Assembly (NCBI GenBank): GCA_019636655.1
Contig: JAHBXB010000001.1
Coordinates: 620,001-684,000 of the forward strand
Length of the DNA: 64,000 bases
Origin: Phycisphaeraceae bacterium
GTDB lineage: Bacteria > Planctomycetota > Phycisphaerae > Phycisphaerales > UBA1924
Reading direction: 5' to 3'
Shown here: in pieces, positions 6,111 through 27,802 of the stretch
How the letters are laid out: every line of letters begins with the position of its first letter
How positions within the stretch are numbered: the stretch's first letter is position 1
Translations under genes and position numbers: made by a program
The notes under the pieces: model-generated
The model's input: the letters and a program-made list of their open reading frames with translations, nothing else
Told to the model about the DNA's origin: nothing
Databases searched by the model: none

Positions 6111-6128
6111 GGTGGGATGCTCCGGCCG

Positions 6129-7620: not shown

Positions 7621-7739
7621 TCGCAGTTCGCCGACGATCAGATGCGATGCAGGCGGACGGAGCCGCAACGTCACAGCGGATGTGTTCAAGAACGAGATGC
7701 GTGGGCAGAACGAGCAGGTATGGTGAAGGAGCACAAACG

Positions 7740-9296: not shown

Positions 9297-9889
9297 CGGC
9301 GTGGTTCGAGTCCGATCCGGCGCGGTGGGCCGGCGAGCAGGAGATTGCACACCGCCTTATGGAGGGCGTGACCGCGACGATCGACGAGTCCGGACGGTCC
9401 GTGATCCGCGGCACGTTCCGGCTCCTTTCCGAGCACGGCACGGAGCTTGATCGATTCGCGCTTCGGTTCGTCTACCCGGATGGGTTTCCGTCCCGTGGAC
9501 TGCACCCCAGCGTCTACCTCGACAGCCACCGCGACCGCTGGCGGAACACGGTCGACAGCCACATCGAATCGGACTGGAAGCTCTGCCCCTACGTCCCGGG
9601 AGAGTCCGAGGTGAACTGCCTGCGCCCGGATGCGCTCGCGACGATCCTCGCCCGCGTCCATGTGTTCCTTCGCCTGGAGACCATCTACCAACGGGACCTG
9701 GTAAAGGAACTGACGACCGGGATCAAGGCCCGGTGGCCGGGGCCGCAGCGATCGCACGGGGACCTGGGGCTGTTGGAGGCCGCCCGCGAGAGGCGCCCCT
9801 CTCCCAACGGCCCCTGCATCTGCGGGAGCGGGAAGAAGTACAAGAAGTGCCACCTGTGGAAGCTGTCGCGGCCGAAAGGTCGCCGCTAG
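9293..9889 (+). CDS. E2-like (ubiquitin-conjugating fold) protein with C-terminal SEC-C zinc motif
   Basis: The 198-residue protein starts at a GTG overlapping the cyclase stop by four bases. Residues 15-145 look like a bacterial E2 fold: a strand pattern ending in LRFVYPDGFPSR, then His90 and Cys98 in HIESDWKLCPYVPGES, where His and Cys occupy the usual active-site places. A WPGPQRSHG segment (148-156) follows, a motif I associate with E2-like proteins of defence loci. Residues 173-187 (CICGSGKKYKKCH) form a SEC-C zinc motif. In type II CBASS, E2 domains attach the cyclic nucleotide synthase to a target through its C-terminus and raise its activity. Here the partner would be the class III cyclase, whose C-terminus (WMPEP) has no obvious terminal Gly. 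The E2 call rests on a weak pattern; the SEC-C call is firm. Confidence 0.7.
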   Translation: MTAWFESDPARWAGEQEIAHRLMEGVTATIDESGRSVIRGTFRLLSEHGTELDRFALRFVYPDGFPSRGLHPSVYLDSHRDRWRNTVDSHIESDWKLCPYVPGESEVNCLRPDALATILARVHVFLRLETIYQRDLVKELTTGIKARWPGPQRSHGDLGLLEAARERRPSPNGPCICGSGKKYKKCHLWKLSRPKGRR

Positions 9890-10797
9890 ATGGCGCCGAG
9901 TTTGCGGGTAGCTTGGCGCAGTTCGTGGCACGCCGGCCCCAGTTCGTCGGCCAGCGAGCAGCCCTCGCGGCACACGTAGGTGATCGGGGTCACCCCCAGC
10001 AGGTCGGTGGGTATCTTGAGATCGCCCCCATGCTGCCGCATCAGGAACACGCGCTCGCGGCCGAGCTTCCCCATGAACAGGCCGAGCTCGAACACCACGT
10101 TGTCGCGGGGTCCCTGGTACTGCTGGTCGCGGCTCGCGATCTTGTCATCGGGGCCGAAGACGAACAACGCGAAGTCTGCCTCCGACACCTGCCGTATCAG
10201 GTCGTCGACGGGAATGCCGGACGGCCCAAAGACCCCAGTGGTCCAGATTTTGACCACCAAGGGGTCGTGTTTGAGCTGTTGCTGGACCTCCCGCGCGACA
10301 CTGAGCCCCTCGACGGATGACCCCAGGAACAGGACCGGCATCGGGTTCGCGGGCCGATGGAACTTCTCGCGTTGCCGGAGTCGTTCCGCCAGGATCCTGC
10401 TGGCCGCCTTCCAGAGACTGCCTGACGTCTGCTCCGCGATCGACTCGAACGTCTCCCCTGCCAACTTGAGGACCGTCACCGCGTCCCGCGCCTTGACCGT
10501 CGCCGACCTCGGCGCGGCCGGTTCAATCACCGCCATCTCCCCGATCGTCTCCCGCGGACCGCGCGCGGCAACCGCACGGTTATTCACAAACACGTCCGCA
10601 ACCCCGGTGAGAATGAAGTAGACGGTGTTGTCGGCGGCTCCCTGTTCGATGATCGTCTGGCCCGGTTGGAACTCAACCAGCTCGCCGTGCTCGGCGAGCA
10701 GCGCCGCCACACCCTCATTGTGCTGAACAAGCCGGCTGTCGAGCAAGGCGTCGACCAGCCGTTTGCGGCCCGCGTCTCCCACGAAACGATCCTTCAT
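9886..10797 (-). CDS. pycTIR: PycTIR: cyclic-nucleotide-binding TIR effector of a Pycsar system
   Basis: The 303-residue protein has a CAP-type cyclic-nucleotide-binding domain at about 20-140 (phosphate-binding cassette GEMAVIEPAAPRSATV) followed by a TIR-like domain at about 152-290. The TIR part has the signature DNVVFELGLF, with Glu237 as the likely NADase residue, and the opening strand VLFLGSSVEG. This is the Pycsar PycTIR layout, in which a cyclic pyrimidine nucleotide activates the TIR domain to consume NAD+ and stop growth. The ATG at 10797 is preferred to one at 10818 because GGGAGG lies just before it. It is the last gene of the minus-strand operon after pycTM and pycC, 48 bases after pycC. 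Its stop shares four bases (CTAG) with the E2-like gene coming the other way. Confidence 0.9.
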   Translation of the reverse strand: MKDRFVGDAGRKRLVDALLDSRLVQHNEGVAALLAEHGELVEFQPGQTIIEQGAADNTVYFILTGVADVFVNNRAVAARGPRETIGEMAVIEPAAPRSATVKARDAVTVLKLAGETFESIAEQTSGSLWKAASRILAERLRQREKFHRPANPMPVLFLGSSVEGLSVAREVQQQLKHDPLVVKIWTTGVFGPSGIPVDDLIRQVSEADFALFVFGPDDKIASRDQQYQGPRDNVVFELGLFMGKLGRERVFLMRQHGGDLKIPTDLLGVTPITYVCREGCSLADELGPACHELRQATRKLGAI

Positions 10798-10845
10798 GAC
10801 GATCCTCCCGGCCCGCATGCCCGCGGCACGACCCCGTCGCGTGAA

Positions 10846-11544
10846 TCAATCGATCCCCCAGTGCCAGTTCGAACGGTAGATCACCGCTCCCTTCATGCCG
10901 GCCCACGGCACGGGCTCCCACATGGGCCTTCCCGCCGAGATCCTTGTCGAGTCGTTCATGCCATCGTACACGGCCTTGGTCATCCAGGAGGAAAACCCGC
11001 CCTCTCGCATCGCGCAGAGTTTGGCCGCGTAGTTCGCTGGCCGCCCGATCCACACGAGGTCGTTGTACTGGCGAATCCCGGTCTTGACCACCATGAGGGG
11101 ACCGGCATCGATCCCGACGACCTGACGGAGCTCGAAGTCCGTGCCAGAGTACTTTGCCTTGATGGCAGGGTTGATGATCTCGCGGACAGCGTGGTTGATG
11201 CGGAGCGCCGCCCGAGCGGCGCGGGTGCACTTGGAGTCGTCAACGAAGACTGCCATGACACGATCGCCGTCGAACGCCGTGATCTCGCCGGACTCCGCAC
11301 GGATGATCCTTGAGGCCGCCACCAGGTACATCTTGTAGACCTTGGCGGCGAATCGGTCGTTCTGGCTGTCAACGAGCGCCGTCGACGCCACAAGGTCGGC
11401 GTACAGCACCGCACCATCGATGTCGACAGCCTCGTTGCCCAGTGTGAGGTCCACAGTCTCCGGGACCTTGCGGCCCTGCCTGCGGACGAACTCTGAGTTG
11501 ATGATGCTCGTGACTTCGCTCTTCAGGTCGTTTGTGAACCCCAT
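10846..11544 (-). CDS. pycC: PycC: pyrimidine nucleotide cyclase of a Pycsar system
   Basis: The 232-residue protein matches the Pycsar cyclase type closely: it opens with MGFTNDLKSEV, has metal ligands Asp50 (LYADL) and Asp94 (FDGDRVMAVF), a substrate/dimer region VVGIDAG, and the WIGRPANYAAKL segment with Asn171. PycC enzymes are homodimeric class III cyclases that make cCMP or cUMP after phage infection. Which base is used cannot be read with confidence here. The start ATG lies two bases past the pycTM stop, so the genes are tightly coupled. The product should signal to both PycTM and PycTIR. No domain is missing and the length is normal for the family. Confidence 0.93.
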   Translation of the reverse strand: MGFTNDLKSEVTSIINSEFVRRQGRKVPETVDLTLGNEAVDIDGAVLYADLVASTALVDSQNDRFAAKVYKMYLVAASRIIRAESGEITAFDGDRVMAVFVDDSKCTRAARAALRINHAVREIINPAIKAKYSGTDFELRQVVGIDAGPLMVVKTGIRQYNDLVWIGRPANYAAKLCAMREGGFSSWMTKAVYDGMNDSTRISAGRPMWEPVPWAGMKGAVIYRSNWHWGID

Positions 11545-11546
11545 AG

Positions 11547-12038
11547 TCACCCTCGATACAGGTACGCGACGGCTGCGGCCCAGAGGATGACACCGCTGAA
11601 CAGGTAGCCGAGTGCGTACTTCATCGCGCCGTGCTTGCCGGCGGCGATCTCTGCGTTGACGTGTGTCTGCGCGATCAGGTCGTTGAGGTACTCGGCTGGC
11701 CCGCACGCGAGCACCGCCTCGCGGTATTCAGAAGCGTTGCGCTTGCAGATCTTGCCAAAGTAGATCAATGACCCGGGCCCCTCGGTTTGTGGAAATGTGG
11801 CCACCCAGCAGAAAAACAGACTGACGACACAGCCAGCCGATCCGCACAACGCAGCCAGGATCTGATCCCAGGTGACCGCCGATGGCTCGGGCACCACGGC
11901 GGCGATGACCCCAAGGAGGGCGGTGTCGATCGTCGCTGCGAAATTGACCTTGCTGTCCACCGATGCGATCGCCTCGATGTTCCGATCGAGGATCTGCTCC
12001 TGCCGCTCGATGAGCCCCTGCAGTGTGCTGTCGTCCAT
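11547..12038 (-). CDS. pycTM: PycTM: membrane effector of a Pycsar system
   Basis: The 163-residue protein begins MDDSTLQGLIERQEQIL, a leading helix typical of Pycsar membrane effectors, followed by hydrophobic segments at about 28-47 (IDTALLGVIAAVV), 56-80 (ILAALCGSAGCVVSLFFCWV) and 141-161 (YLFSGVILWAAAVAYLY). A soluble stretch with a conserved-looking YLNDLIAQTHVNAEIA helix lies between the last two. PycTM proteins respond to cyclic pyrimidine nucleotides and disrupt the inner membrane. This is the first gene of the operon, two bases from pycC. The ATG at 12038 is chosen on similarity of the N-terminus; a GTG at 12071 is an alternative and neither has a strong ribosome site. Confidence 0.85.
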   Translation of the reverse strand: MDDSTLQGLIERQEQILDRNIEAIASVDSKVNFAATIDTALLGVIAAVVPEPSAVTWDQILAALCGSAGCVVSLFFCWVATFPQTEGPGSLIYFGKICKRNASEYREAVLACGPAEYLNDLIAQTHVNAEIAAGKHGAMKYALGYLFSGVILWAAAVAYLYRG

Positions 12039-12217: not shown

Positions 12218-13192
12218 TCACTTATCCACAGGCCCAGTTAGCTTCAACGATCGCGGCATCGCGACCCACCCGCGTGACAGCGGCGGCAACGACGGCCGCA
12301 GCACCAGCCCCCCTATCACCTCGTCGATGCGGGCATCTGGATACACGGCGCACACCTGCCGCAGCGCGTGCCGGAACTCCTTCTTGAAGTCCTTGGACCG
12401 GGCGTAAGCCGGCCCGAACTGGTCCTTGAGGTTCTGCCAGCTCAACTTCACACCACCCGGTTTGGTCACGCGGCAGAGCCGATGCGCCAGCCATGTGTAC
12501 ACGTCCAGAGCCAGCGACGAGTGCTTGAGAGCACCGAGCGCCCGGTAGTCCAGCGGCACCGCGTGCCCCACGAGCGTGTTGTAGAAGTCTTCGGAGAGTT
12601 CGAGAACGCCCGGCCACAGCGTCCGCTGTGACCCATCCTGGTCCCCTTGGTGAAGCCAGGCCTCGAACCGCTTGATCGGCTTGGCATCCAGCGTCACGGC
12701 CTTGCCGTGCGCGAACATACCGATGGTCATGCGGCACGCCGCGAGGGCTTCCATCTGCCGCTTGAGGGCGGTGTACCCACCGCGGGGGCCCCCACTGGTC
12801 TGCATGCCCAGCCGCGTGAGGAACTGCCGCATGCTGTCGCCGATCTCAACGGACCGGTTCCGCGTCCGCACAGCTTCAGAGGAAACGTGGACCAGGACGA
12901 GACGGGGCGTCGCTCCATAAGGCAGAGGCTGATCCACCCAGTCGAGCCCGTTGTAGAGCTTGCCGGCCTCCAAGAGCAGGCTCGCGTGCCCGCTCCGCCG
13001 CTCGTAGATCCGCTCCACCGTCCGGCTCCTGGGCATCCCGATCTGGCAGAGCACCGAGTGCAGGAAGTCCATGCGGTCCGGCGGCTCCTGCCGGATGGCC
13101 GTGGCCGCATCGATCAACCGTTCAATCGTGCGCGGGATCCTGACCAGCTCGCGGCCGCGGCCGTCCCAATCCGGGGGCTCCGAGTCCCTCAC
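12218..13192 (-). CDS. repA: Plasmid replication initiator, RepA_C type
   Basis: The 324-residue protein looks like plasmid RepA proteins. The N-terminal half contains RTVERIYERRSGHASLLLEAGKL, the middle has SGGPRGGYTALKRQMEALAACRM, and the C-terminal part has the typical region around DFYNTLVGHAVPLDYRAL and LALDVYTWLAHRL, then a DQFG/KDFKKEF segment. Such proteins bind iterons and open the origin. The start is set at a GTG overlapping the stop of the ribbon-helix-helix gene (GTGA); an upstream GTG at 13219 would overlap that gene more deeply. The gene is third in a minus-strand operon with parA and the small partition protein. Its end contains a DnaA box and iteron-like repeats follow it. 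An intact initiator suggests the element can or could replicate as a plasmid. Confidence 0.82.
   Translation of the reverse strand: MRDSEPPDWDGRGRELVRIPRTIERLIDAATAIRQEPPDRMDFLHSVLCQIGMPRSRTVERIYERRSGHASLLLEAGKLYNGLDWVDQPLPYGATPRLVLVHVSSEAVRTRNRSVEIGDSMRQFLTRLGMQTSGGPRGGYTALKRQMEALAACRMTIGMFAHGKAVTLDAKPIKRFEAWLHQGDQDGSQRTLWPGVLELSEDFYNTLVGHAVPLDYRALGALKHSSLALDVYTWLAHRLCRVTKPGGVKLSWQNLKDQFGPAYARSKDFKKEFRHALRQVCAVYPDARIDEVIGGLVLRPSLPPLSRGWVAMPRSLKLTGPVDK
12222..12230 (+). promoter_or_regulatory. DnaA box at the 3' end of the replication initiator gene
   Basis: TTATCCACA is an exact match to the DnaA box consensus. It lies inside the last codons of the initiator gene (CTGTGGATAAG on the coding strand) and 25 bases from the nearest iteron-like repeat. 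A DnaA box beside iterons is normal in plasmid origins and supports placing an origin at 12.13-12.23 kb. Confidence 0.55.
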
Positions 13193-13488
13193 CGGATCAG
13201 CCCGTTGCTCCGAAGCCACGGCTCGATCGCCGCTTCGAGCATGTCCTGCAGGGTGTTGGGCTCGGTCCCGCTCAACTGGCGTTCGAGCGATGCCCGCTTC
13301 AACGCCTTCGCGAGATCCCCTCTGATCCGTGTCGTGATCGACACACGCTCCACGACCGGGCCGGCGTTGGCAATAGCCGGCCGGTTCGAGTACACGAACT
13401 CCCGCTCCTTGACGGGATCCACGGCATTGCCAGCGGCCGCCGCGGCCGGCGGCTTGATTCCCTCAGTCAATGTCCTCCTGTCCACCAT
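13189..13488 (-). CDS. Small ribbon-helix-helix-like partition/regulatory protein
   Basis: The 99-residue protein has a disordered Ala-rich start and a C-terminal segment VERVSITTRIRGDLAKALKRASLERQLSG...TLQDMLEAAIEPWL, which reads as one strand and two helices, the pattern of a ribbon-helix-helix DNA-binding domain. The ATG at 13488 has GGGGAGGGGAG just upstream. It lies between parA and repA with overlapping or nearly overlapping ends on both sides, so it is probably the ParB-type (ParG/Omega-like) partner that binds the centromere and represses the operon. This role is inferred from position and fold. Confidence 0.65.
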   Translation of the reverse strand: MVDRRTLTEGIKPPAAAAAGNAVDPVKEREFVYSNRPAIANAGPVVERVSITTRIRGDLAKALKRASLERQLSGTEPNTLQDMLEAAIEPWLRSNGLIR

Positions 13489-15238: not shown

Positions 15239-15257
15239 CGGCGGGGTCGCGAGCGGG

Positions 15258-15295: not shown

Positions 15296-15322
15296 TCGTC
15301 CGCGTTCGGTTGGCGCGGCGCG

Positions 15323-17170
15323 TCAGTCTGCATCACGTTTCGGAGTCCAGGCGTTGACCCGCTCCGCCAGCGTCTTGTCCTCAAACCCCTTGGGTTGGGT
15401 CCTGGCCTGGCTGAACAGTGCGGCCAACTCCTCGACCAGCGCCGACTTCTTGCGGCTCAGGGCGGCCGATCCGCGGGCCTTTCCTCCCAGCGTCCCGACC
15501 AGGTCGGCAAGCTGGATCTTCTGGTACCCCGACAGCCACTCGGCATCCGGCGTCCAGTGATCGCGGACCGCGACCTTCAACTCCGTCGCCAGCATGCCGA
15601 GCAGGGCCGTCTCCCGCTGGCCGTGCCCGGTCAGGCAGTCGGCTAACAGCACCACGAGAAGCTCGTCCAACGCCTTCTCGTTCAGCTTGCACAGCCGCTT
15701 GTACGCGTCCTCCTCGTACACGATCCTGTCCTTCTTGAACGGGTCGATCGCGTCCCGCTCCTTGCGGAGCGCGGCGAACACGTCGGACTTGAACGTCTCC
15801 GACGCCCCGGCGTGGAGAGTGGTCCCGTTGGCCTCGCGGCGGAGCGCGATCGCATCGCTGGTCACCTTGTCGTGGAGGGCCAGCACGAGCAGCCGCTTGC
15901 GGACGATGGCCGGGGCCGTCCGGACCGCCTGCCGCACCGCGATCGCCTCGTGATGCCGAACCGCTGCGGCCTGCCGGTCCGACAGGTCGTTGGCCGTGGG
16001 GGGAGGGGGCGGGGCCTCCGGCTTCCCGCCACCGCCCGCCGTCCCGTTCCGCCGCTCGTCCTTGCCGATCCTCGGCACCCGGTAGTGCCGCTCGACCCGG
16101 CCGTCCGGCGAAAGCACGAGGAACGCCGTCGCCCGGCACTTGGTCTCTTCGTCGTACCGTCCCTGGGCCTCGCGGACGATCTCATCCTCCTCCTGGTCGA
16201 GCGCGTCCAACTCGGCCGATGCCTTGTCGTCGTCCGCGTCATCTTCGCCGATCTCGATCTTCTCCCGCTTCTCGGCCAGCTTGTCGAGCCTCGCCCGCTC
16301 GGCCTGGGTGAACCTCGGCTCCGGCTCGCTCATGGAGTACAGCCGGTCCTGCACCTCGGCCCGCTCGCCAACGATGACCTCCTTCCATCCGTCCTCGATC
16401 AGCGTCTCCCGCTCCCTGGTCAACGCCGCGGCCTGGGCCTGCATGAACGCCTTCCGCTCGATCAGGACACAGTCGCGGAACAGGTCGGTGCTGACCGCCT
16501 CCGCCGGGAGCGAGTCCACGTCGAACAGAGCGTGCTTGGCGTCGATCCACCGGTCCTCGATCAGGTTGCGGACGTGCTGGGCGTGCCTCGGCCGTCCATC
16601 CGTCTCCTTCCACACCTCCATCTGCCTCGCCTCGGGCACCGCCGCGAACGCCTCGGCCGTCGCGGTGTCGATCTGGTTCGCCCGGTACGCGTCCTTCACC
16701 GTGCGGCACAGCCCGGCCAGCTTCATCCGCTGCCGGATGTACGCCTCGCTCACTCCGAAGTGGGCCGCGATCGCGTTGACTCCCTGGCGGTCGACGCTGG
16801 CCATCCGTGCGAACGCCTCGGCCTCGTCCAAGGGGTGCATCCCCTCGCGGGTGAAGTTCTCGGTGAGACTGAGTTCCTCGGCCTCCTCAGCCTCGACCTT
16901 TCGCACGACGCACGGGATGGACACTGTCTCATCCTGGTACACCGCCCGGAGCGCCTCCAGCCTCCGGTTCCCCGCGATCACCCGGAAGTGCCCGTTCTCC
17001 GGCCGGACCACCAGCGGCTCCAGCAGCCCGTGGGCCCGGATGGAGGCGACCAGTTTCCGGTGAGCCTCCCGCTCCGGCTTGACCCGCCTGGGGTTCCGGA
17101 GGTTGGCCACCAGCTTGGACAACGGGACGGTTACGCTCGCCTGACTGTGGCTCGATTGATTGGCCTGCAT
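15323..17170 (-). CDS. ParB/RepB/Spo0J-like protein with long C-terminal extension
   Basis: The 615-residue protein begins after AAGGAGA at an ATG (17170). Residues 12-105 form the ParB N-terminal domain (VPLSKLVANLRNPRR, LLEPLVVRPENGHFRVIAGNRRLEALRAV), with the Arg-rich box GNRRLEAL that binds CTP in ParB proteins. A helix-turn-helix region follows (NAIAAHFGVSEAYIRQRMKLA, about 145-165). The remaining 400 residues include a charged, acidic linker (IGEDDADDDKAS), a Pro-rich stretch and a helical end, and are far longer than in a normal partition ParB. Proteins of this build are common on conjugative plasmids, often called ParB-like nuclease-domain proteins, with no proven role. It has its own terminator. 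A role in segregation or in element regulation is possible. Confidence 0.82.
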   Translation of the reverse strand: MQANQSSHSQASVTVPLSKLVANLRNPRRVKPEREAHRKLVASIRAHGLLEPLVVRPENGHFRVIAGNRRLEALRAVYQDETVSIPCVVRKVEAEEAEELSLTENFTREGMHPLDEAEAFARMASVDRQGVNAIAAHFGVSEAYIRQRMKLAGLCRTVKDAYRANQIDTATAEAFAAVPEARQMEVWKETDGRPRHAQHVRNLIEDRWIDAKHALFDVDSLPAEAVSTDLFRDCVLIERKAFMQAQAAALTRERETLIEDGWKEVIVGERAEVQDRLYSMSEPEPRFTQAERARLDKLAEKREKIEIGEDDADDDKASAELDALDQEEDEIVREAQGRYDEETKCRATAFLVLSPDGRVERHYRVPRIGKDERRNGTAGGGGKPEAPPPPPTANDLSDRQAAAVRHHEAIAVRQAVRTAPAIVRKRLLVLALHDKVTSDAIALRREANGTTLHAGASETFKSDVFAALRKERDAIDPFKKDRIVYEEDAYKRLCKLNEKALDELLVVLLADCLTGHGQRETALLGMLATELKVAVRDHWTPDAEWLSGYQKIQLADLVGTLGGKARGSAALSRKKSALVEELAALFSQARTQPKGFEDKTLAERVNAWTPKRDAD

Positions 17171-17469
17171 CGCCAGTCTCCTTGTGCCGAGACGGGCCAA
17201 GTCGCTCGGTCGAACCGATCGCACGGGCGCTTGCCTCTCGACGGAGGTGGGCTGCTCTCCTGGCGCGGGGGTCCCCCGCGCGTACAATCACCCCGGCGAG
17301 AGGCAAGGGGCATCCACTCATCTCAATGAAGACACGCCCGGCCCCGCGACGCCCCGCGGGGCCGAACCGTCTGTTGACCTGATCCGGCCCGGACCAGCCC
17401 CCGCGGCACCTGAGCGGACCAGTGCCCGGCTTGATAGGGCGGGCCCGGCACCACTGGTACGATGTCGGC
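17171..17469. other. Divergent intergenic region
   Basis: These 299 bases separate the ParB-like gene from a plus-strand gene and must hold their promoters. There is a strong palindrome CCCCGCGGGG around 17350. I see no convincing -35/-10 pair and no RNA gene. Confidence 0.3.
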
Positions 17470-17913
17470 GTGCCACGCAGGAAGATTGCGAAATACGGGC
17501 AGCACGCGCTGAGCGTTCACCGGGAGGGGCTTCCTCGGGAGCCGCAGCTTGTATACATCGCGTGCGCGAATAGGCGCGTGAAGTACCCGGCAGGTCTCAA
17601 GTCGAGAGTGGTGTACATCGGGACCACCGAACGGGGCGTGGCGCGGATCGCCGAGAGCGCGGCCAAGAAAACTACCGAACTTCTGACGGAGCACGGATTC
17701 AAAACGCTCCACTTCTTCGTGGTCAAGTGCCGTGGAGTCCAGAGCATCGCCATGTGGGAGAAGCTGGAGAGTGCGCTGCTCATGGAGTTCCGGGACATGT
17801 ACGGCGTGTTGCCTAGGGGCAATCACAAAATCAGCAAGAAGTTCACGTGGGCGTCGATCGAGGAGCACTTCGTCAGGTCAGCGCTCCGGGACACCCTGCT
17901 GGCGTACGACTGA
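17470..17913 (+). CDS. Small protein with GIY-YIG-like nuclease features
   Basis: The frame runs from a GTG at 17422 or 17470 to 17913; the later GTG is chosen but neither has a clear ribosome site. The 147-residue product has LVYIACAN, then VVYIGTTERGVARIAES, which fits the two short strands and conserved Arg of GIY-YIG endonucleases. A later MWEKLESALLMEFRDMYG segment provides a plausible Glu. These nucleases cut DNA in repair, mobile introns and defence. The gene ends 20 bases before an HNH nuclease gene, with which it may be co-transcribed. The motif is degenerate (VYI/VYIG), so activity is uncertain. Confidence 0.55.
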   Translation: MPRRKIAKYGQHALSVHREGLPREPQLVYIACANRRVKYPAGLKSRVVYIGTTERGVARIAESAAKKTTELLTEHGFKTLHFFVVKCRGVQSIAMWEKLESALLMEFRDMYGVLPRGNHKISKKFTWASIEEHFVRSALRDTLLAYD

Positions 17914-17933
17914 TCCGAGGTACAGGGAGAGTC

Positions 17934-18959
17934 ATGGCAATCTCAGAGAGGGATATCAAGCTGCTGTGGGGGCGTGCCGCGGGACATTGCTCGGCTCCCG
18001 GTTGCCTGGTCAGCCTTCTTCCGCTGCTCGACAACAGCGGAAGCGTCGTGATGGGCGAAATGGCGCACGTGATCGGGCGACGCCCGGGATCGGCGCGGAA
18101 CGACAGCGGCGCTGGAGAGGGGGACGGCTACGACAATCTGATTCTCCTCTGCCCCAATCACCACACCGTTGTCGACAAGGCGGAGGCGGATTACCCGCCG
18201 GCGACGCTGCGGCAGTGGAAGGCGGTGTGGGAAGCCCGGGTATCGCGCCGCGTCCTGAAGCGGGTGTCCTCCCGGAGCGACGACATGCTGGACACGCGCC
18301 TCTGGACTTATTTCAACTTCGGGCTTGTGCTGAAGCTGCATCGGGAGCACTGCGCCGATCCGCCCCTCGGTTCACTCTCCCGCCTACGGCAGGGAGGGAT
18401 CGTCGACGACGACGGCTTGCCACGAAGCGGGGATGGAGAGAAACGGTTCGGCCCTCCCCGAACGGTGTTCGAGACCTGGGCCCAGGACAAGGCGCGTCAG
18501 CTCCAGCAGTTCTACTCGGGGATTGTGGAGGGGCTGATTCATGAGACCCCGCCGCTTGACCTGGACGAGGTCTGGGGCATCCGCAAGCTGCGAAGCCTGC
18601 TCTACCCGATGGCCGTCGTGTCGTTGAATCGCCGGTGCCACTTCAAGACAGTGCGGAAGCAAGGCGAGAACGAGGAACGACGGGTGCGGTGCCGGGCGAA
18701 GGGCATCGAGGTCGTGTTCCAGATGGACTCGTGGAACGTGTTCAGCAGTTCGTCGCTCGACCTTCACTTCCGGGGGAGCACTCGGACCCTGGCGCTGTTG
18801 CTGGTGAGGAGCGTGGAGGCGTCGCCGGGGTCGGGCCCGATTCGCCTCGTCGTCAAGACGACACCAATCGCCCTTGGGGCGGGGTTTCCTCCGAGCAGCG
18901 ACCGGACGCCGGCGATCGCATGGCGCAAATGCGAGAGCGACGAGGACGAGGCTTTCTAG
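17934..18959 (+). CDS. HNH endonuclease domain protein
   Basis: The 341-residue protein has an N-terminal HNH domain: a zinc pair Cys19/Cys24 (GHCSAPGC), AHVIGRR with His45, then LILLCPNHHTVVDK with Cys73, Asn75 and His76/77. This form of HNH is usual in bacterial defence and phage nucleases. The C-terminal 250 residues have no family I recognise; they may sense or bind a partner. The ATG at 17934 has GGGAGAG upstream. The gene follows the GIY-YIG-like gene closely. Its stop overlaps by four bases (CTAG) the stop of the ArdC-like gene on the other strand. A DNA-cutting role in defence or in competition between mobile elements is likely but inferred. Confidence 0.8.
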   Translation: MAISERDIKLLWGRAAGHCSAPGCLVSLLPLLDNSGSVVMGEMAHVIGRRPGSARNDSGAGEGDGYDNLILLCPNHHTVVDKAEADYPPATLRQWKAVWEARVSRRVLKRVSSRSDDMLDTRLWTYFNFGLVLKLHREHCADPPLGSLSRLRQGGIVDDDGLPRSGDGEKRFGPPRTVFETWAQDKARQLQQFYSGIVEGLIHETPPLDLDEVWGIRKLRSLLYPMAVVSLNRRCHFKTVRKQGENEERRVRCRAKGIEVVFQMDSWNVFSSSSLDLHFRGSTRTLALLLVRSVEASPGSGPIRLVVKTTPIALGAGFPPSSDRTPAIAWRKCESDEDEAF

Positions 18960-19810
18960 CATTGGGGCGTCACCGTGGTTGTCGAGGACGCGGCCTGCCG
19001 CACATCATGGTCGGCGTGGCTGATCAACTTCGCGATGATCTCTGCCGCGGTCTTCTGGATGCGGTCGAGCGACGCGGCCAGCGTCTCGGTCTTCCCGTCG
19101 TAGAGCTGGATGTAGTCGCTCGCGGCGGTTCCGGTCTCCAGCCCGATGGCGGAGGACACGACGAACGCCACCGCCTCGGCCTCGGTCTCCCGCACGGTCT
19201 TGGAGATCTCTTTCCGGTCCTCGCCTCGGTGCAGCAGCTCGTGGGCCAGCTCGTGCACGATCACTGCGAACTCACGGGCCGGCGGCAAGCCGGGCCGCAC
19301 GCTGATCCGCCCGCCGCGTGAGACGCCGTCCGCCCCCATCGGCAGGTCCTCGGTGTCCAGCGTGATGCCCCGCTCCGCGACGAGGGCCTTGATCCGCTCC
19401 AGGTGCACGCCCGGATCGCCGGCGACCTGCGGCGGCTCGGGCAGCTCTGCGCCCTCGGTCTGCGCCACGTCGAACACGTGCACGCCGCGGAACCGGAGGA
19501 CCGGACGGGACTTGCCCTCATTGCTCTCGTCCTCGTCCCTCGGCTTGATCAGCATCGGCGCCAGGATGGCGATCCCCTTCTCGCCCTTCTTGACGAACCG
19601 GCCCAGCGACTTCCAGGTGTGGAACCCGGCGACGTGGGTCGCCTCCGGCCGTTGCCAGAGGATGAGCATCACGTTCCCGAAGCTGTACTTGTGGAACCGG
19701 GCCAACACGGCGAGGTACTTCGTGAGCGCCTCACTCTTGCCTGCGGCCAGCGCGGTGGCGAGTGATTCGAGGGCCTGATCGGCGATCTTCTTGACTTGGT
19801 CGGCTTTCAT
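18956..19810 (-). CDS. ArdC-like antirestriction protein with zinc-peptidase domain
   Basis: The 284-residue protein has the N-terminal single-strand DNA-binding domain of ArdC-type proteins (FHKYSFGNVMLILWQRPEATHVAGFHTWKSLGRFVKKGEKGIAILAP, residues 39-84 in order) and a C-terminal zincin motif HELAH at 186-190, followed by an EAEAVAFVV helix for the third ligand. ArdC-like proteins are carried by conjugative plasmids and protect incoming single-stranded DNA from restriction. The ATG at 19810 has GGAG eight bases upstream; the frame continues upstream without a good start. Its presence fits a transferable element, as do the relaxase and coupling protein genes further right. Confidence 0.85.
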   Translation of the reverse strand: MKADQVKKIADQALESLATALAAGKSEALTKYLAVLARFHKYSFGNVMLILWQRPEATHVAGFHTWKSLGRFVKKGEKGIAILAPMLIKPRDEDESNEGKSRPVLRFRGVHVFDVAQTEGAELPEPPQVAGDPGVHLERIKALVAERGITLDTEDLPMGADGVSRGGRISVRPGLPPAREFAVIVHELAHELLHRGEDRKEISKTVRETEAEAVAFVVSSAIGLETGTAASDYIQLYDGKTETLAASLDRIQKTAAEIIAKLISHADHDVRQAASSTTTVTPQC

Positions 19811-20330
19811 GGATTCTGCTCCTGGTGCGGGTCCCGCGACGTGCGGTCCCTTCACCGGGCAAGGGACCACTCGCGGGTGCACCAGGGAGCAAGCGGCGCG
19901 GCCGTTCCTCTACACCGTCGCTTCCTCCACCCGCCCGCCGGAGAGCCCGCCTCTGCACAGCCGAGTGCCAGATCCAGTCCCGTCCCTGCGGGACCTGGCG
20001 CGAGGCGTGCCCGGCTCGAAGGCGGGCAGAGCCAGCCGCGACGGCGGCCGCGCCGCGTCCGAAAGCCGACTCAGTCAAAGGGAAACCCGCCCCGGTCACA
20101 CTGCCGCAGCTGCACCGATCGTGCAGCACTCACAGCGCCGTGCGGAACGTGCCCGGCCGGGAGGAAATGGGACGAAAGGCCAACTTGTCAGACGCTCGCG
20201 GGGTCCACGTCAGTCGCGACGGTGCAGGCAACGCGGGAACGGGATGCCCCGCGCGATACGAGCCGGTCAGCCAGTAGGGACTGTGGTGAAGTCGACCTCT
20301 TCGCGCCTGTTCGATGCGGTGAACTTGCCG
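19811..20330. other. Intergenic region, no gene recognised
   Basis: About 520 bases lie between the ArdC-like start and the toxin stop. Several short frames are open but none has a ribosome site and family-like sequence. The promoter of the ArdC-like gene must be at the left end. I see no clear repeat or RNA gene. Confidence 0.3.
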
Positions 20331-20666
20331 CTACTGAGCGACCGTCACGGCCCGCCGGAGCATGGAGATCGGATCGGCCATCGTCGGCAGCACCGCGAGG
20401 ATCTGCACCGCCTCGGGCGTGACGCGGTAGAGCACGCCGAAGGGGAACCGATGCGTCAGGGCCCGTCGCACACCCGGGTGCACCTCGGGGCACGAGAGGG
20501 GGAACTCCTCGATCCGCACCGCGGCGCCGCGGATCTCGGCGAGGAACTCTCGTCCGAGTCCGGGCCTCGTGGCGTCGTACGCGGATGCCGCATTGGCGAT
20601 CTCGAACACTGCCGGCGGCGCGATGACCACCGGCAGGAGGCGGGTCTGGTGCGGGAGGGGGGTCAT
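20331..20666 (-). CDS. ParE/RelE-type toxin
   Basis: The 111-residue protein has the RelE/ParE fold pattern: an early PPAVFEIANAASAYDATRPGLGREFLAEIRGAAVRIEEFP stretch (two helices), then VRRALTHRFPFGVLYRVTPEAVQILAVLP, the four-strand sheet with conserved Arg and Phe. Such toxins either cut mRNA at the ribosome or block gyrase; which one cannot be told. The start ATG overlaps the antitoxin stop by four bases, the usual toxin-antitoxin coupling. The pair would stabilise the element. Confidence 0.85.
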   Translation of the reverse strand: MTPLPHQTRLLPVVIAPPAVFEIANAASAYDATRPGLGREFLAEIRGAAVRIEEFPLSCPEVHPGVRRALTHRFPFGVLYRVTPEAVQILAVLPTMADPISMLRRAVTVAQ

Positions 20667-20899
20667 CGCCGCGCGATCCGGACGATGGCGGCGTCGAAGG
20701 GCTCACAGACCATGAGGCCCGAGTCGATCGCTGCGATGCGGCCCTGGATCTCGATGACCTCGGCATCTGTCAGCAGCGCGGCCTCGACGGAGTCGCGGAC
20801 GCTCTCCCAGAGCCGCTGGGCAAGGTCGATCCGCTCGGTGACGGACAAGGCCGAGAAGTCAAAGTCGTGGTGTCCCGTTGGGTGCACGCAATCCTCCAT
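20663..20899 (-). CDS. Addiction-module antitoxin (TIGR02574 type)
   Basis: The 78-residue protein has the short antitoxin pattern LSVTERIDLAQRLWESVRDS followed by LLTDAEVIEIQGRIAAIDSG, which is typical of the addiction-module component family paired with ParE/RelE toxins. It is upstream of the toxin and overlaps it by four bases. It should bind and neutralise the toxin; no DNA-binding domain is visible, so autoregulation is uncertain. The first 12 residues (MEDCVHPTGHHD) are unusual, and the true start could be slightly downstream. Confidence 0.8.
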   Translation of the reverse strand: MEDCVHPTGHHDFDFSALSVTERIDLAQRLWESVRDSVEAALLTDAEVIEIQGRIAAIDSGLMVCEPFDAAIVRIARR

Positions 20900-21011
20900 C
20901 TGTGTGGGTTTGGTGGGGAGAATGACACGCTCGATTGACCTTGTAAAGGGCGGAGTTGCCAGTGCAGGGTGACCGCCAGGCCTCTACGTTTCCCTGCTAA
21001 CCTTGCTACCG

Positions 21012-22694
21012 ATGCCACCTGCCCGGCCGACTACGAAGGGGATCCTGCAGCGTGGGTTTCTTCCCAAAGAGCTGCCTCCCTGTTTTGACTCCACGACCTT
21101 CGCGGTGTTCGCGCACGCAAGGGCGAAGTCTCTCTCGGGGGCCTACGCCGGGAAGTGGACGAGGTCGGTGCGGTACAACCTTGTACGCCCCGGGGGTGGA
21201 AGGCGGGTGCTGTCGATTCCGAATCCGCTCGGGTACGCCTGTCTGGCAGCGACGCTGCTGGAAGACTGGCCGGCACTCTCGCGGCAGTGTCAAGGATCAC
21301 CGCTGTCACAAAGCACGCCGCGGGCGGGACTTGAGGGAGAGCGGGAGGTCATGCCCGCCAAGGAGCTCAGGTCACTCTTCGACTTGCGGCTTGGGAACCG
21401 GGCAGAATCGGGCTACATGGTTCGGGCGGACGTGCTCGATTTCTATGGGTCGATCTACACGCACAGCGTTCCGTGGGCGCTTGTAGGAAAGAGCGTGGCC
21501 AAGGGTCGGGTGCGCGGGAAGGCGGCGAAGGGATCCAAGCCTTGGCCGGACCGACTCGACGAGGCGTTGCGGAATGTCCAAGACGGACAGACGAACGGAA
21601 TCGACGTCGGGCCGGACAGCTCGTTCGTGATTTCCGAACTGCTGCTCTCGGTGGTCGACACGGAATTGAAGAAACGAATCCCTGGCATTCGGGGGTTTCG
21701 GTACTACGACGACTATGAGCTCTACTTTTCGGAGCGGAGCGAAGCGGAGGAGGGGTTGGCGGCGCTGCAGGACGCGTTGCTCGAGATGGAACTGGTGCTG
21801 AACCCGCGAAAGACCGAGGTTGTCGCGCTCCCGCAACCTCTCGACTTCAGATGGGCGATGGAGCTTCGGCAAGCCGCCCGCGGGATCGGAGGCCGACGCA
21901 CGCAGCGGGATAGCTTGGTCGACCTGTTCGAGCGGTCGTTCTCGCTCATCGCAGGGGGCACCAGGGAGCACGTTCTCCGATATGCGGTGGGCCTCGTGCA
22001 GGAGGAGTTCCTGCACCCCGACAACTGGCCGGTGTATGAGAAACTGCTCTGGCAGGCCTCGCACGTCGAGCCTGCGATTCTCCCCGCGGTTCTGGGCGAA
22101 GTCCTGAGGTATCGCGATATGGGATTGGCAGACGGCGGCGAGGCTCCGATTGACCTCGAGATGGCCGGCGACGTCCTGAACCGCCACATCATGCGGTCGC
22201 TGCGACAGGCCACTTCGCACGAGGTGGCGTGGGCGGTCTGGGGACTCGCGGCGCTGGAACGATCTATGGAGAAGGACGCAGCGGTCGCTGCGTGCAAGTC
22301 GGTGGATGCGGTCGTGGCGGTCATGATGTTGCTCGCGGACGAGCGGGGGATCATTGACAAAGGCTTCACAACCGACGCATGGACGGATGCCGCAGCGCCG
22401 GAGGCTCTCGCGACCGGCGTCTGGTTGCTGGCGTACGAGGCTGGCGTCCGCGGCACGAAGCTCGGGAGCTTGGCAGCCGGGCAGGGCTGGTCGGCAAGCC
22501 CGTTCGAGGAAATGTTCGAGAAAATGAAGCGGGCCGGCGTGACGTTCACTGCGGATCGCTTTGGATACTCGGAGGAGGATTTCGATTCCGATGAGTACGA
22601 CTACTCGTTCGATGACGACGACGAGGACGACGATGAGGAGGATGTCGATGAAGACTGGGACGACGACGACGATGATGGAGGCGTGAGGTTCTAA
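21012..22694 (+). CDS. Reverse transcriptase, defence-associated (DRT/unknown-group) type
   Basis: The 560-residue protein is an RNA-directed DNA polymerase. The catalytic box is YYDD at 231-234 (FRYYDDYELYF); motif A is MVRADVLDFYGSIYTH with Asp140 and Asp143; a motif B-like GIDVGPDSSFVISELLLS is at 196-213. The opening ILQRGFLPKELPPCFDSTTFA is one I associate with stand-alone RTs of the unknown groups, many of which are phage-defence RTs. There is no group II intron maturase domain and no diversity-generating repeat nearby. Residues about 290-500 are helical and repeat-like, and the last 45 residues are almost all Asp/Glu. The ATG at 21012 is preferred to a TTG at 21003. It sits alone between the toxin-antitoxin pair and an exported protein. 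The subgroup is not determined. Confidence 0.85.
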   Translation: MPPARPTTKGILQRGFLPKELPPCFDSTTFAVFAHARAKSLSGAYAGKWTRSVRYNLVRPGGGRRVLSIPNPLGYACLAATLLEDWPALSRQCQGSPLSQSTPRAGLEGEREVMPAKELRSLFDLRLGNRAESGYMVRADVLDFYGSIYTHSVPWALVGKSVAKGRVRGKAAKGSKPWPDRLDEALRNVQDGQTNGIDVGPDSSFVISELLLSVVDTELKKRIPGIRGFRYYDDYELYFSERSEAEEGLAALQDALLEMELVLNPRKTEVVALPQPLDFRWAMELRQAARGIGGRRTQRDSLVDLFERSFSLIAGGTREHVLRYAVGLVQEEFLHPDNWPVYEKLLWQASHVEPAILPAVLGEVLRYRDMGLADGGEAPIDLEMAGDVLNRHIMRSLRQATSHEVAWAVWGLAALERSMEKDAAVAACKSVDAVVAVMMLLADERGIIDKGFTTDAWTDAAAPEALATGVWLLAYEAGVRGTKLGSLAAGQGWSASPFEEMFEKMKRAGVTFTADRFGYSEEDFDSDEYDYSFDDDDEDDDEEDVDEDWDDDDDDGGVRF

Positions 22695-22803
22695 CTGGTC
22701 ACATTGCGAGTGCCGACGTGTCACAGCCGCGAAGGAACCCGGACACCGCTACGCTTCGGGCTGGGGCAGTGTGTATCCCCCGGAATGAGAGCTCAACGTG
22801 GAC

Positions 22804-23709: not shown

Positions 23710-23715
23710 AAGAAC

Positions 23716-23741
23716 GGACCCGCCCCGTCAAGGGCGGGCCC
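23716..23741. terminator. Hairpin between convergent genes
   Basis: GGACCCGCCC at 23716-23725 pairs with GGGCGGGCCC at 23732-23741 (one mismatch) around a CGTCAA loop. It lies between the stops of two converging genes, where a two-way terminator is expected, but there is no clear T-run on either side. Confidence 0.45.
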
Positions 23742-23760
23742 GCCCGGTGGGTCGAAGGCG

Positions 23761-23994: not shown

Positions 23995-24539
23995 ACGAGT
24001 CTCCTTTCGAGAGGTTGTGAGGCCGCGACTATCGCGACCTGATGGCACTCCTCGCGAGCCGGACGAGACGGAGACAGATCGCTGTCGTTCCGTCAAGCGG
24101 AAACTGGGAGGGACCCGTCGAGCTGCAGCCCCCTCGCGGGCGAAGCGAGCGGGAGGAACCGGGTTTCTGCTGGACGGACCGGCGACGGCTCGACCGTGCC
24201 AGCAGCAGCGTCGCGACTGGTCGGGCGGCCTCGATCTCGAAAGGCCCAAGACTCGCAGAGCACCACGCACCCGCAGCGGCCCGGCGCCGACCAGTCCCGC
24301 CACATCGTCACTCTTCTCGCTCCCGCGAGGACCGGAGAGCACAAGTCTCATTCGGCCCGCATCCGCGTGGGTGATCGCCAGGCAGGAGTTCCAGGTTGCA
24401 CCGTGCAATCTGCGACGGTCACCCCACATATCGCGCATCGCCGAGAACCGCAGCGCCGAGCCTCCCGTAGGGCGGGCCAGTAGCCGCGGGTCACGCTCGC
24501 GTTTACCGGTTGGTAACTACTTCTGTGGTAAGGTCGAAG
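23995..24539. promoter_or_regulatory. Region upstream of the relaxase: candidate oriT and operator
   Basis: This 545-base gap lies between divergent genes. Directly before the relaxase, TTACC at 24503-24507 and GGTAA at 24512-24516 form an inverted repeat, and a third GGTAA is at 24527-24531, fifteen bases on. MobF relaxases usually nick an oriT placed next to their own operon, and accessory proteins bind short inverted repeats there. The position and repeat make this the best oriT candidate in the window, but no nic sequence is recognised. Confidence 0.4.
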
Positions 24540-27200
24540 ATGCTCCGCATCGTCCAGAACACCTCCGTCGGCGGCGCCAAGAGCTACTACTCCACCGCCG
24601 ATTACTACACCGAGGGCCAGGAGCTCACCGGCACCTGGCGCGGCCTGGGCGCGGAGCGCCTCGGCCTCTCGGGTGCAATCCAGAAGTCAGACTGGGACGC
24701 TCTCTGCGACAACCTCGACCCCCGCCCCCCCCACGCCGGCGAGCAGCTCATGCCCCGCAACCGCCGAGTCCGCCGGGTCGGCTACGACCTGAACTTCCAC
24801 TGCCCCAAGAGCGTCAGCGTCCTCTACGGCCTCACCAGCGACCAGCTCCTGCTGGACGCCTTCCGCGACTCGGTCAACGCCACGATGCAGGACATGGAGG
24901 CAGAGATGCAGACCCGCGTGCGCTCGCAGGGCCGCAACGAGGACAGGACCACCGGGAACCTGGTCTGGGGCGAGTTCATCCACTTGACTGCAAGACCAAT
25001 CGACGGCGTCCCCGACCCGCACCTGCACGCGCACTGCTTTGCGTTCAACACCACCTTCGACCCCGAAGAACAGCGCTGGAAGGCGGGGCAGTTCGCCGGC
25101 CTCAAGCGGGACGCCCCGTTCTTTGAGGCGGTCTTCCACTCCCACCTGGCCCGCCGCATCGAAGAGCTCGGCCTCCGCACCGAGCGCACCCGCACCGGCT
25201 GGGAGATTGCCGGCGTCCCGACCACCGCGATCGAGAAGTTCTCCCGCCGCACCGCGGCGATCGAGGCCGAGGCCAAAGACAAAGGCATCACCGATCCGCA
25301 CGCCAAGGGGGAACTCGGCGCCCGGACCCGCGAGCACAAGGTCAAGGACCTCCCGATGGACCAGCTCCGCCAGCAGTGGCACTCCCGCCTCTCGGCGGAC
25401 GAGCAGTCAGCGCTGGAGAACATCCGCGAGCGGACCGGCTCCAAGGCCCTCCCCGAGGACGAAGCGGCCACCCGCGATGCGGTGCTCCAGGCCATCGACC
25501 ACTGCTTCGAGCGGAGCGCAGTCCTCCCGGAACGCACGCTCCTGACCGAGTCCCTGAAGCGCTCCGTCGGCAAGGCCGCCCCCGACCGGGCGATCGCCCG
25601 GACGAGAGGCCAGCCGCTGATCACACGCACGCGGGACTCCCGCCGGTTCGTGACCTCGGCCGAAGTGCTGAGGGAAGAACAGGGCATGCTCGCCTTCGCC
25701 AAGTCCGGCCGCGGCGCCTGCCGCTCGCTCGCCCCGGCGGGGTACCAGCTCACCCGCGACTGGCTGACCGACGAACAGCAGGCCGCCGTGCGGCACGTGC
25801 TGACCAGGCACGACCGCGTGATCCTGGTCCGCGGCGCTGCAGGGACTGGCAAGACCACCATGATGCAGGAGGCTGCCGACGGCATCCGAGCTGGAGGCCA
25901 CGATGTGCTCACCTTCGCCCCCTCCGCCGCCGCCAGCCGCGGCGTACTCCGCCACGCCGGCTTCGGCGAAGCCGAGACCGTCGCGCGCCTGCTGGTGGAC
26001 CCACAGCTGCAGGACCGCGCCCGCGGCCAGGTGATCTGGATCGACGAAGCGGGCCTGCTCGGCTCCCGCACCACCGCGCAGGTCTTCTCCCTCGCGGACC
26101 GGCTTGATGCCCGGGTTGTGCTTTCGGGCGACCGCCGCCAGCACGGCTCGGTGGAACGCGGCGGCGCCCTGCGCCTGCTCGAAGACGAGGCGGGTCTGAT
26201 CCCCACCGAGCTCCGCCAGGTCCGCCGCCAGACGGGTGAGTACAAGCGAGCCGTCGAGGCCCTGGGCGAGGGGCGCACCGCCGAGGGATTCACGCGACTT
26301 TCCGACCTGGGCTGGATCAAAGAGATCGGCGATCAGGAGCGCTACAGGGTCCTTGCCGCCGCGTACCTCGACAGCACTTCCAAGGCCGGCAGCACGCTGG
26401 TCGTCTGCCCGACGCACGCCGAGTCGGACCGCATTACCGCCGAGATCCGCGACGGCCTCAAGGCCACCGGCCGCCTGAGCACAGACGAACGGGCGTTCAC
26501 CAAGCTCATCCCGCTGCAGCTGACCGAGGCCCAGCGGGCGGACAGGCTCTCCTACCAGCCTGGCGATGTGCTGGTCTACCACCAGAACGCCCGCGGCCAC
26601 CGCAAGGGGGACCGCCTCATCGTCGGCGCGGATCCGGTCCCGACGGAGCAGGCGAATCGCTTCTCGGTCTTCCGACCGGGCTTCATCCGCCTGGCCCCCG
26701 GCGACCGCGTGCGGATCACCAAGAACGCCACCTCGATGGACAAAGCGAAGCGCCTCAACAACGGCGACCTGGCGGGCGTGGAGGGTTTCACGGCCAGGGG
26801 CGAGATCATCCTGGACTCCGGCGCGGTGCTGGCCCCCGGTTTCGGCCACCTGGACTACGGCTACGTCGTCACCAGCCACGCGTCCCAGGGAAGGAGCGTG
26901 GACCGCGTGATCATCGGCCAGTCGGCCGAGTCCCTGCCGGCTTCCAGCCGCGAGCAGTTCTACGTCAGCGTCTCCCGCGGCAAGAAGCAGGCGACCATCT
27001 TCACCGACGACAAACGGGCTCTTCTGGACGCCGTCAGCCACGGCGACGAGCGACTCACCGCGACAGAGCTGATCCACGAACGCGAGCGCCGCGAGCGCGG
27101 CAGCACGCTGCAGCGTCGGGAGCTGCTGGCCGTGACCCCGCCCCCGGCCCGGGAGCCGACCACCGTCCATGAGCACAGGGAGATCGACCATGACCGATGA
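24540..27200 (+). CDS. MobF-type conjugative relaxase-helicase (TrwC/TraI family)
   Basis: The 886-residue protein has an N-terminal relaxase domain: catalytic tyrosines among Tyr16/17 and Tyr22/23 (SYYSTADYY), and the metal triad His161, His163, His165 (HLHAH). From about residue 410 a RecD-like helicase follows, with Walker A GAAGTGKTT near 432-440, Walker B VIWIDEAGLLG near 500, and late motifs GYVVTSHASQGRSVD and EQFYVSVSRGK. It nicks one strand at oriT, stays bound to the 5' end and unwinds the DNA for transfer. The family is typically 900-1,000 residues or more, so this is at the short end. The ATG at 24540 matches the usual MLxIxxxxS start. The next gene overlaps its end by 11 bases. 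Together with the coupling protein it marks the element as transferable. Confidence 0.95.
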   Translation: MLRIVQNTSVGGAKSYYSTADYYTEGQELTGTWRGLGAERLGLSGAIQKSDWDALCDNLDPRPPHAGEQLMPRNRRVRRVGYDLNFHCPKSVSVLYGLTSDQLLLDAFRDSVNATMQDMEAEMQTRVRSQGRNEDRTTGNLVWGEFIHLTARPIDGVPDPHLHAHCFAFNTTFDPEEQRWKAGQFAGLKRDAPFFEAVFHSHLARRIEELGLRTERTRTGWEIAGVPTTAIEKFSRRTAAIEAEAKDKGITDPHAKGELGARTREHKVKDLPMDQLRQQWHSRLSADEQSALENIRERTGSKALPEDEAATRDAVLQAIDHCFERSAVLPERTLLTESLKRSVGKAAPDRAIARTRGQPLITRTRDSRRFVTSAEVLREEQGMLAFAKSGRGACRSLAPAGYQLTRDWLTDEQQAAVRHVLTRHDRVILVRGAAGTGKTTMMQEAADGIRAGGHDVLTFAPSAAASRGVLRHAGFGEAETVARLLVDPQLQDRARGQVIWIDEAGLLGSRTTAQVFSLADRLDARVVLSGDRRQHGSVERGGALRLLEDEAGLIPTELRQVRRQTGEYKRAVEALGEGRTAEGFTRLSDLGWIKEIGDQERYRVLAAAYLDSTSKAGSTLVVCPTHAESDRITAEIRDGLKATGRLSTDERAFTKLIPLQLTEAQRADRLSYQPGDVLVYHQNARGHRKGDRLIVGADPVPTEQANRFSVFRPGFIRLAPGDRVRITKNATSMDKAKRLNNGDLAGVEGFTARGEIILDSGAVLAPGFGHLDYGYVVTSHASQGRSVDRVIIGQSAESLPASSREQFYVSVSRGKKQATIFTDDKRALLDAVSHGDERLTATELIHERERRERGSTLQRRELLAVTPPPAREPTTVHEHREIDHDR

Positions 27201-27678: not shown

Positions 27679-27802
27679 TGCGAATCGAGCGAGCAAACTG
27701 GGGAGCACATGGCGTGTAGCATTGCCGGGAGGGCGGCGAGAGATCGCCGCATCGGCCATTTGTCCGGAGAACGGGCCGCCATCCCGAGGTACGCTTGCAC
27801 TC

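Follow-up and report, generated by a model that had tools for sequence, protein, structure and literature searches.

A DRT6 (UG12-type) reverse transcriptase whose disordered acidic C-terminal tail has counterparts elsewhere in the family

The window, that is, the whole 64,000-nt stretch of Phycisphaeraceae DNA analysed here, contains a reverse transcriptase (RT) gene with ArdC, HNH-like, and antitoxin-like genes to its left and a TrwC relaxase gene to its right (Table 1). The ArdC gene, an IetAS-like pair, and Pycsar-like genes all lie within 18 kb of the RT gene and, together with the nearby TrwC gene, uphold the first-pass annotation in placing the RT in an element rich in defence genes; the surroundings are mobile, probably plasmid-derived, defence cargo. 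No Pfam or PADLOC match was obtained for a small ORF at 20331-20666 or for the C-terminal half of the HNH-like protein. Elsewhere in the same genome, at approximately position 135206 of contig C5, lies a second defence RT (L012), for which the best PADLOC model is Drt8 (E=1.6e-138).

Table 1. Features of the RT gene and of its surroundings (window coordinates)
Feature	Position	Strand	Remark
IetAS-like pair: subtilase (IetS), AAA ATPase (IetA)	3885..7247		
Pycsar-type cyclase gene	7647..9296	+	the two cyclase genes have best matches to different PycC models
cNMP-binding TIR effector, between the Pycsar cyclases	9886..10818	-	
Pycsar-type cyclase gene	10846..11706	-	see above
RepA	12218..13219		
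ParB	15323..17287		
HNH-like protein	17847..18959		N-terminal part matches SAVED-HNH CBASS effectors
ArdC-type anti-restriction protein	18956..19882	-	PF08401, E=1.2e-11
Antitoxin-like gene (Unstab_antitox), divergent, directly upstream of RT	20663..20899	-	PF09720, E=6.9e-09
DRT6 (UG12-type) RT	21012..22694	+	560 aa, complete
Catalytic Asp140, RT motif A (ADVLDFY)	21429..21431	+	invariant in A4 and A6 alignments
YYDD box, residues 231-234	21702..21713	+	D233 and D234 invariant
Helical (alpha-repeat) domain, approximately residues 280-512	21849..22547	+	AlphaFold secondary structure; ends in GVxF
C-terminal tail, residues 513-560	22548..22691	+	28 of 48 residues D/E; ends DDDDDDGGVRF
Tyr529-Asp-Tyr531 in tail, candidate priming tyrosines	22596..22604	+	inference, by analogy with DRT9 Y496/Y498 and DRT3b Y666
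TrwC-type relaxase/helicase	24510..27200	+	PF08751, E=8.4e-65

The RT frame opens with an ATG at 21012, with an in-frame TTG at 21003, and closes with the stop codon at 22692-22694. The polymerase core is intact, as had been claimed from the YYDD box: D140, R230, D233, and D234 are invariant in a 27-sequence alignment that includes the window RT. The AlphaFold2 model of the window RT, computed with 24 sequences, has a pLDDT of 87 and a pTM of 0.87, and in it residues from approximately 280 to 507 are mostly helix. The helical domain, for which the boundary at residue 280 is our own choice, terminates in a conserved GVxF motif whose F512 is invariant in the A4 and A6 alignments.

To place the window RT among its relatives, we assembled 59 RT frames, having removed every frame that exceeded 95% identity to an earlier entry. 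The 24 frames to which the A1 profile gives more than 380 bits (the next receives 245 bits) are referred to below as the DRT6 clade, and the other 35, all UG/Abi RTs, serve as controls; the 380-bit cut is our own, 8 of the 24 went into building A1, and the solved DRT6 structure 9wy8 is in neither count. Matches at E<=0.001 were found in 11 of 200 near genomes, three of them with DRT6-clade members (G000, G067, G003), and in 137 of 392 genomes of the phylum, most covering the RT core only and three belonging to the DRT6 clade (G000, G384, G406). The own class (397 genomes) gave ten matches at E<=1e-30 with three DRT6-clade members (G000, G067, G860), and 195 Myxococcota gave five at E<=1e-20, again with three (G562, G650, G673). 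Twelve genomes of the class of G384 and G406 held no additional DRT6-clade member, and two genomes of the class of G200 gave no match. Genome contigs yielded one relative, from Corallococcus praedator. Viral contigs (IMG/VR) gave no match with P0001 alone and 25 loci with the A1 profile; the A2 and A3 profiles added no further DRT6-clade contig there. Plasmid searches matched 203 records, seven over 80% of the query, of which five were used; no phage record matched over 80% of the query, and a DNA search of E. coli genomes with L055 gave no match. The best identity of the window RT to any relative is approximately 38%.

Profile, fold, and tree agree that the window RT is a DRT6 (UG12) enzyme, a well-supported assignment to a known defence family, and so support the view that it is a stand-alone defence RT amid defence genes. 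Specifically, the best of 50 PADLOC families is Drt6 (PDLC03748, E=1.4e-128, residues 7-542), while the Drt4 model PDLC03752 reaches E=1.2e-76. The AlphaFold model superimposes on 9wy8, a cryo-EM structure of a hexameric DRT6, with a Z score of 40.9 and an rmsd of 2.1 Å (492 of 495 residues aligned); the other fold matches are DRT4 (Z 34.1), AbiK (26.3), Abi-P2 (22.5), a group II RT (15.5), and a DGR RT (15.0). In the tree, the window RT falls in a 25-row clade together with 9wy8 at a support of 93/95, just below the usual 95 mark, and the UG15 rows form a separate branch (support 100/97). The tree has 38 rows, of which 16 control rows and PDB fragments were chosen by hand, and seven control rows of the 59 frames, among others, are absent from it. 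Phylogenetic placement, which had been proposed as a check, thus puts the window RT with DRT6 and not with retrons or group II RTs, and the earlier description of an unplaced, unknown-group RT gives way to DRT6.

Profile scores alone could suggest DRT4 (UG15) instead: two Drt4-labelled PADLOC models, PDLC02177 and PDLC02179, score 388 and 380 bits on the window RT, near the 428 bits of Drt6, and one or the other is the top model in 8 of the 24 DRT6-clade members. These two models, however, give 255-779 bits for the 24 clade members, against 198-250 bits for three UG15 rows, indicating that they describe the DRT6 clade and not UG15, and both the fold match and the tree place UG15 behind DRT6; a DRT4 identity is therefore highly improbable. 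The structure 9wy8, which is titled DRT6, groups among those eight members in the tree, and our guess is that the Drt4 label is off rather than the placement. The Drt4 labels of PDLC02177 and PDLC02179 may mislead annotation more generally. The NCBIfam Drt4 model gives 228.6 bits on the window RT, below its cut-off of 450.

Other origins were considered and rejected. A group II intron RT is excluded because the maturase model scores 33.1 bits, well below its cut-off of 300, and because an Rfam scan of 15000-30000 showed no intron RNA, in line with the first-pass statement that the gene has no intron context; no Rfam family, that is, no described ncRNA family, passed its threshold in that interval. 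A retron RT is excluded by a score of 11.6 bits against a cut-off of 235 with the St85 model, the sole retron model among the six listed. An orphan RT with a unique tail is excluded by the DRT6 profile and fold and by the acidic tails of relatives.

The helical C-terminal region and the acidic tail are both real. The tail that follows GVxF contains two K/R residues, has a net charge of approximately -26, and is 58% acidic, so that the first-pass wording, about 45 mostly Asp/Glu residues, was fair. In the AlphaFold2 model, tail residues 526-560 have a pLDDT below 50 and are disordered. The acidity is beyond chance: of all 186 stop-to-stop frames of 150 aa or longer in the window, the RT frame is the most acidic at its end, with 27 D/E among the final 45 residues, and the runner-up has 12. 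The acidic codons of the tail (11 GAC, 10 GAT, 6 GAG, and 1 GAA among 48) are mixed and form no simple repeat, and acidic tails stand at the corresponding position in some relatives; an origin by frameshift is therefore unlikely and was rejected. Inspection by eye revealed no strongly acidic frame near the stop codon of L002, L003, L014, L015, and L047, relatives whose tail is not acidic. The first-pass annotation had also named absence of the tail from close homologues, with frameshift evidence here, as an outcome that would count against it; no close homologue was found, the three nearest relatives split (the tail of L013 is acidic, those of L002 and L003 are not), and no sign of a frameshift was found.

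The tail is not unique to this gene, as had been implied, but recurs in DRT6. In particular, 9wy8 has a poly-Asp/Glu C-terminal tail, ending in GDIF and one unread residue, and its modelled chain of 495 residues aligns up to residue 517 of the window RT, so that its tail is absent from the structure model. Calling an end strongly acidic when a 20-residue stretch within the last 60 residues holds at least 9 D/E, we find one in 11 of the 24 DRT6-clade members and in 4 of the 35 other UG/Abi RTs (Fisher p=0.005, a guide only, because the rows are related and not independent). The other 13 clade members fall below the threshold, indicating that acidity is not essential to DRT6. Composition is kept while length and sequence drift: tail lengths and D+E counts are 48 and 28 (L001), 89 and 37 (L056), 109 and 64 (L013), and 112 and 56 (L058), and the Corallococcus tail has EPDEED repeats and an NGF end, the rhizobial plasmid tails have IEDYDDDDFED and a DDGY end, and the viral-contig tails have DEEYFDSS or long EDEDED runs. 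The tail of L061, FFDDDDDDDLPF, misses the threshold. For the tree, 13 rows were labelled as acidic-tailed, namely the 11 that pass the threshold, together with 9wy8 and L061, the last added by eye; parsimony requires four changes of this label, against 11.0 for shuffled labels, and well-supported branches force at least three. The acidic tail is thus clustered on the tree, yet comes and goes; it is a real and recurrent feature of DRT6. The excerpts of two reviews dealing with DRT6 (PMC13213688, PMC13314766) contain neither the word acidic nor the word tail, and within the open-licence literature we found no description of RTs of this type with an acidic C-terminal region or tail.

Aromatic residues are concentrated at the very ends of the clade tails. 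A tyrosine occurs in the last seven residues of 16 of the 24 members (shuffle mean 5.25), and ten terminate in F, Y, or W (shuffle mean 2.24); in neither case did any of 5000 shuffles reach the observed count, and the same holds when five close relatives are dropped (12 and 10, respectively; n=19). The dipeptide [DE]Y is enriched less strongly, whether counted by tails (16 of 24 against 10.38 in shuffles, p=0.003; without the close relatives 11 of 19 against 7.70, p=0.04) or by occurrences (23 against 15.74, p=0.02; without the close relatives 15 against 11.15, p=0.10). A tyrosine in the last seven residues is also present in 14 of the 35 other UG/Abi RTs, Abi-P2-like ones included (p=0.064), and an F/Y/W end in 6 of them (p=0.072), indicating that an aromatic end is a common trait of the wider class, for which DRT6 shows an enrichment at most; the candidate role of a terminal tyrosine as a DRT6 hallmark is weakened accordingly. 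The tail tyrosines of the window RT are Y519, Y529, and Y531, none of them in its last seven residues. Short, tyrosine-containing acidic ends were also observed in Abi-P2-like RTs of viral contigs, L075 and L077 (also L076 and L078), the end of L077 being YDYELDDEDLDDEDE, which makes them a parallel to DRT6 from a different family.

Our preferred reading, which we hold at a probability of roughly 0.75, is that the window RT is a single-gene Class 1 DRT6, of the AbiK/DRT4/DRT6 type, that acts as a hexamer, makes protein-primed, untemplated ssDNA when triggered by phage, and carries its tail as a charged flexible arm that may prime. The enzymatic part of this reading draws on relatives and is the best guess because the window RT shares their whole architecture. 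In the published excerpts, AbiK primes untemplated DNA on Tyr44 of its N-terminal loop and Abi-P2 on Tyr61 (PMC9508834); DRT3b primes on Y666 of 667, in its C-terminal tail (PMC13174585, a preprint); for DRT9 the probable priming residues, Y496/Y498, belong to the C-terminal-tail peptide IMNPQSLNYDYE (PMC12483538); and the priming residue of DRT1 is a serine (PMC13275509). The DRT4 product is given as template-independent, random ssDNA, and a phage DNA-binding protein, ORF55, as protecting the 3′ end of DRT4 DNA and activating both DRT4 and DRT6 (reviews PMC13213688 and PMC13314766). The mechanism of DRT6 itself is called unresolved in one of these excerpts (PMC13314766), and its product chemistry less resolved than that of DRT4 in the other (PMC13213688). 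By analogy, the window RT would most likely assemble into a hexamer, prime DNA synthesis on a hydroxyl residue of its own, and make ssDNA without a template; in phage-infected cells, the ssDNA would be stabilised, accumulate, and halt growth or phage replication. The tail would form a disordered, acidic arm next to the polymerase and act by charge and flexibility, which we favour over an exact motif because composition is kept while length and sequence drift, and it may carry one or more priming tyrosines (Y529/Y531).

Priming from the tail is favoured by the precedents of DRT3b and, probably, DRT9, by the frequency of tyrosine near the ends of the clade tails, and by the lack of any tyrosine in the AbiK-type N-terminal loop of 7 of the 24 clade members. 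It also meets several objections. The window RT has no tyrosine near its very end, and Abi-P2-like RTs do have one there, although Abi-P2 is reported to prime on Tyr61 of its N-terminal loop. The N-terminal loop of the window RT offers Y45 and Y55 as alternative primers. Three of the 24 clade members have no tail tyrosine beyond the GVxF-adjacent position, and two of these, L002 and L014, also lack a tyrosine in the N-terminal loop. The AlphaFold models, moreover, leave the tail disordered both in the window RT and in L063, the member with the shortest tail and a tyrosine end, where the last 11 residues have a pLDDT below 50.

A comparison of the flanks of 19 loci, some of them redundant and with seven clade members having approximately 1.5 kb of flank or less left out, listed no neighbour common to the window, the myxobacterial, and the rhizobial loci, apart from antisense frames lying within the RT gene itself; among some of the viral contigs, other genes are held in common. 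At the rhizobial plasmid DRT6 loci (L044-L046, 1-2955), the RT gene is preceded by a helicase gene and by a gene with an AAA or TOPRIM domain, an arrangement that resembles Gabija (GajAB).

The same tail data can be read in other ways. The tail could be an electrostatic guard, the nucleic-acid mimic of the first-pass annotation: by imitating the ssDNA product it would fill or cover the product channel of the hexamer and restrain synthesis until displaced by DNA or by a DNA-binding protein of the phage. Retention of composition under varying sequence and length (as in L001, L056, L013, and L058), the predicted disorder, and repeated gain or loss on the tree are all consistent with such a guard; 13 of the 24 clade members, however, lack a strongly acidic tail, and the 9wy8 tail, not being modelled, is not seen docked, and we consider a guard possible but short of probable. 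Those same sub-threshold members and the great variation in length would also suit a neutral, fast-evolving disordered extension without specific function. Neutrality is nevertheless unlikely in view of the over-representation of acidic ends relative to other UG/Abi RTs (p=0.005, from related rows), their recurrence on separate branches, and the frequency of aromatic residues at the end, far above that in shuffles.

A bolder reading than a charged flexible arm is that the tail mimics the C-terminal tip of single-stranded DNA-binding protein (SSB), and would recruit or compete for SSB-binding proteins (3′ exonucleases) or meet the phage trigger. The SSB tip binds partner proteins such as 3′ exonucleases. 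Here the host SSB ends in QEDDIPF, and an acidic run followed by a C-terminal Phe is present in the window RT (DDDDDDGGVRF), in L013 (EEDNGF), and in L061; the F/Y/W ends of 10 of the 24 clade members (against 2.24 in shuffles), and the nature of ORF55, a reported DRT4 3′-end protector and DRT6 activator, as a phage DNA-binding protein, also fit. Yet L061 alone among the 24 has the canonical I/L-P-F ending, its 80% identical relative L067 ends in EEAPL, F/Y/W ends occur in 6 of the 35 other RTs (p=0.07), and 9wy8 has its Phe in the penultimate position, with a DIPF-ending query failing to extend that far. Assigning the SSB motif DIPF to the end of 9wy8 proved mistaken, since the residue after DI is Phe. 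We regard SSB mimicry, taken by itself, as very unlikely.

A broader proposal, which we hold tentatively and rate as somewhat unlikely, is that the tail is a functional module of DRT6, either as an arm bearing priming tyrosines (Y529/Y531) or as an SSB-tip mimic through which host exonucleases keep ssDNA in check until a phage protein protects it. If either were true, the tail would be the site where self-control and phage sensing meet, and would explain both the restraint and the triggering of template-free DNA synthesis. Recurrent in the family and not modelled in 9wy8, the tail is a short, removable, and definite segment on which DRT6 can be tested. The window RT is a new member of a known family, DRT6, and the recurrence of its tail is an unexplained, now testable part of that family.

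Compared with known systems, the window RT resembles DRT9 and DRT3b in having tyrosines in its C-terminal tail, and LNYDYE of DRT9 resembles EYDYS of the window RT; DRT9, however, depends on an ncRNA, and its published description gives it fingers, palm, and thumb (PMC12483538); DRT3b works with DRT3a (PMC13174585), and we claim membership in neither. With AbiK (7r06, 7z0z) and Abi-P2 (7r08) it shares an RT domain followed by a helical domain and, by analogy, probably the type of a protein-primed, untemplated DNA polymerase; it differs from them in sequence (approximately 15% identity), in fold (Z 26.3 and 22.5), and in their reported priming from an N-terminal-loop tyrosine. DRT4/UG15 (9vdo, 9vdv, 9l9s, 21ou) has the same architecture and overall fold (Z 34.1) but lies on a separate branch of the tree; only L004 among the UG15-type rows with a C-terminus (L048, L068, L004, L069) passes the acidic threshold, and inspection by eye showed a GYD in the N-terminal loop of 21ou, L048, and L004 but none in that of the window RT. 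The closest likeness is to DRT6/UG12 itself: 9wy8 differs in sequence (approximately 28-29% identity) and in its end, GDIF and one unread residue instead of GGVRF, and has the same profile, the same fold of the ordered protein, the same catalytic residues, and, like the window RT, a poly-Asp/Glu C-terminal tail.
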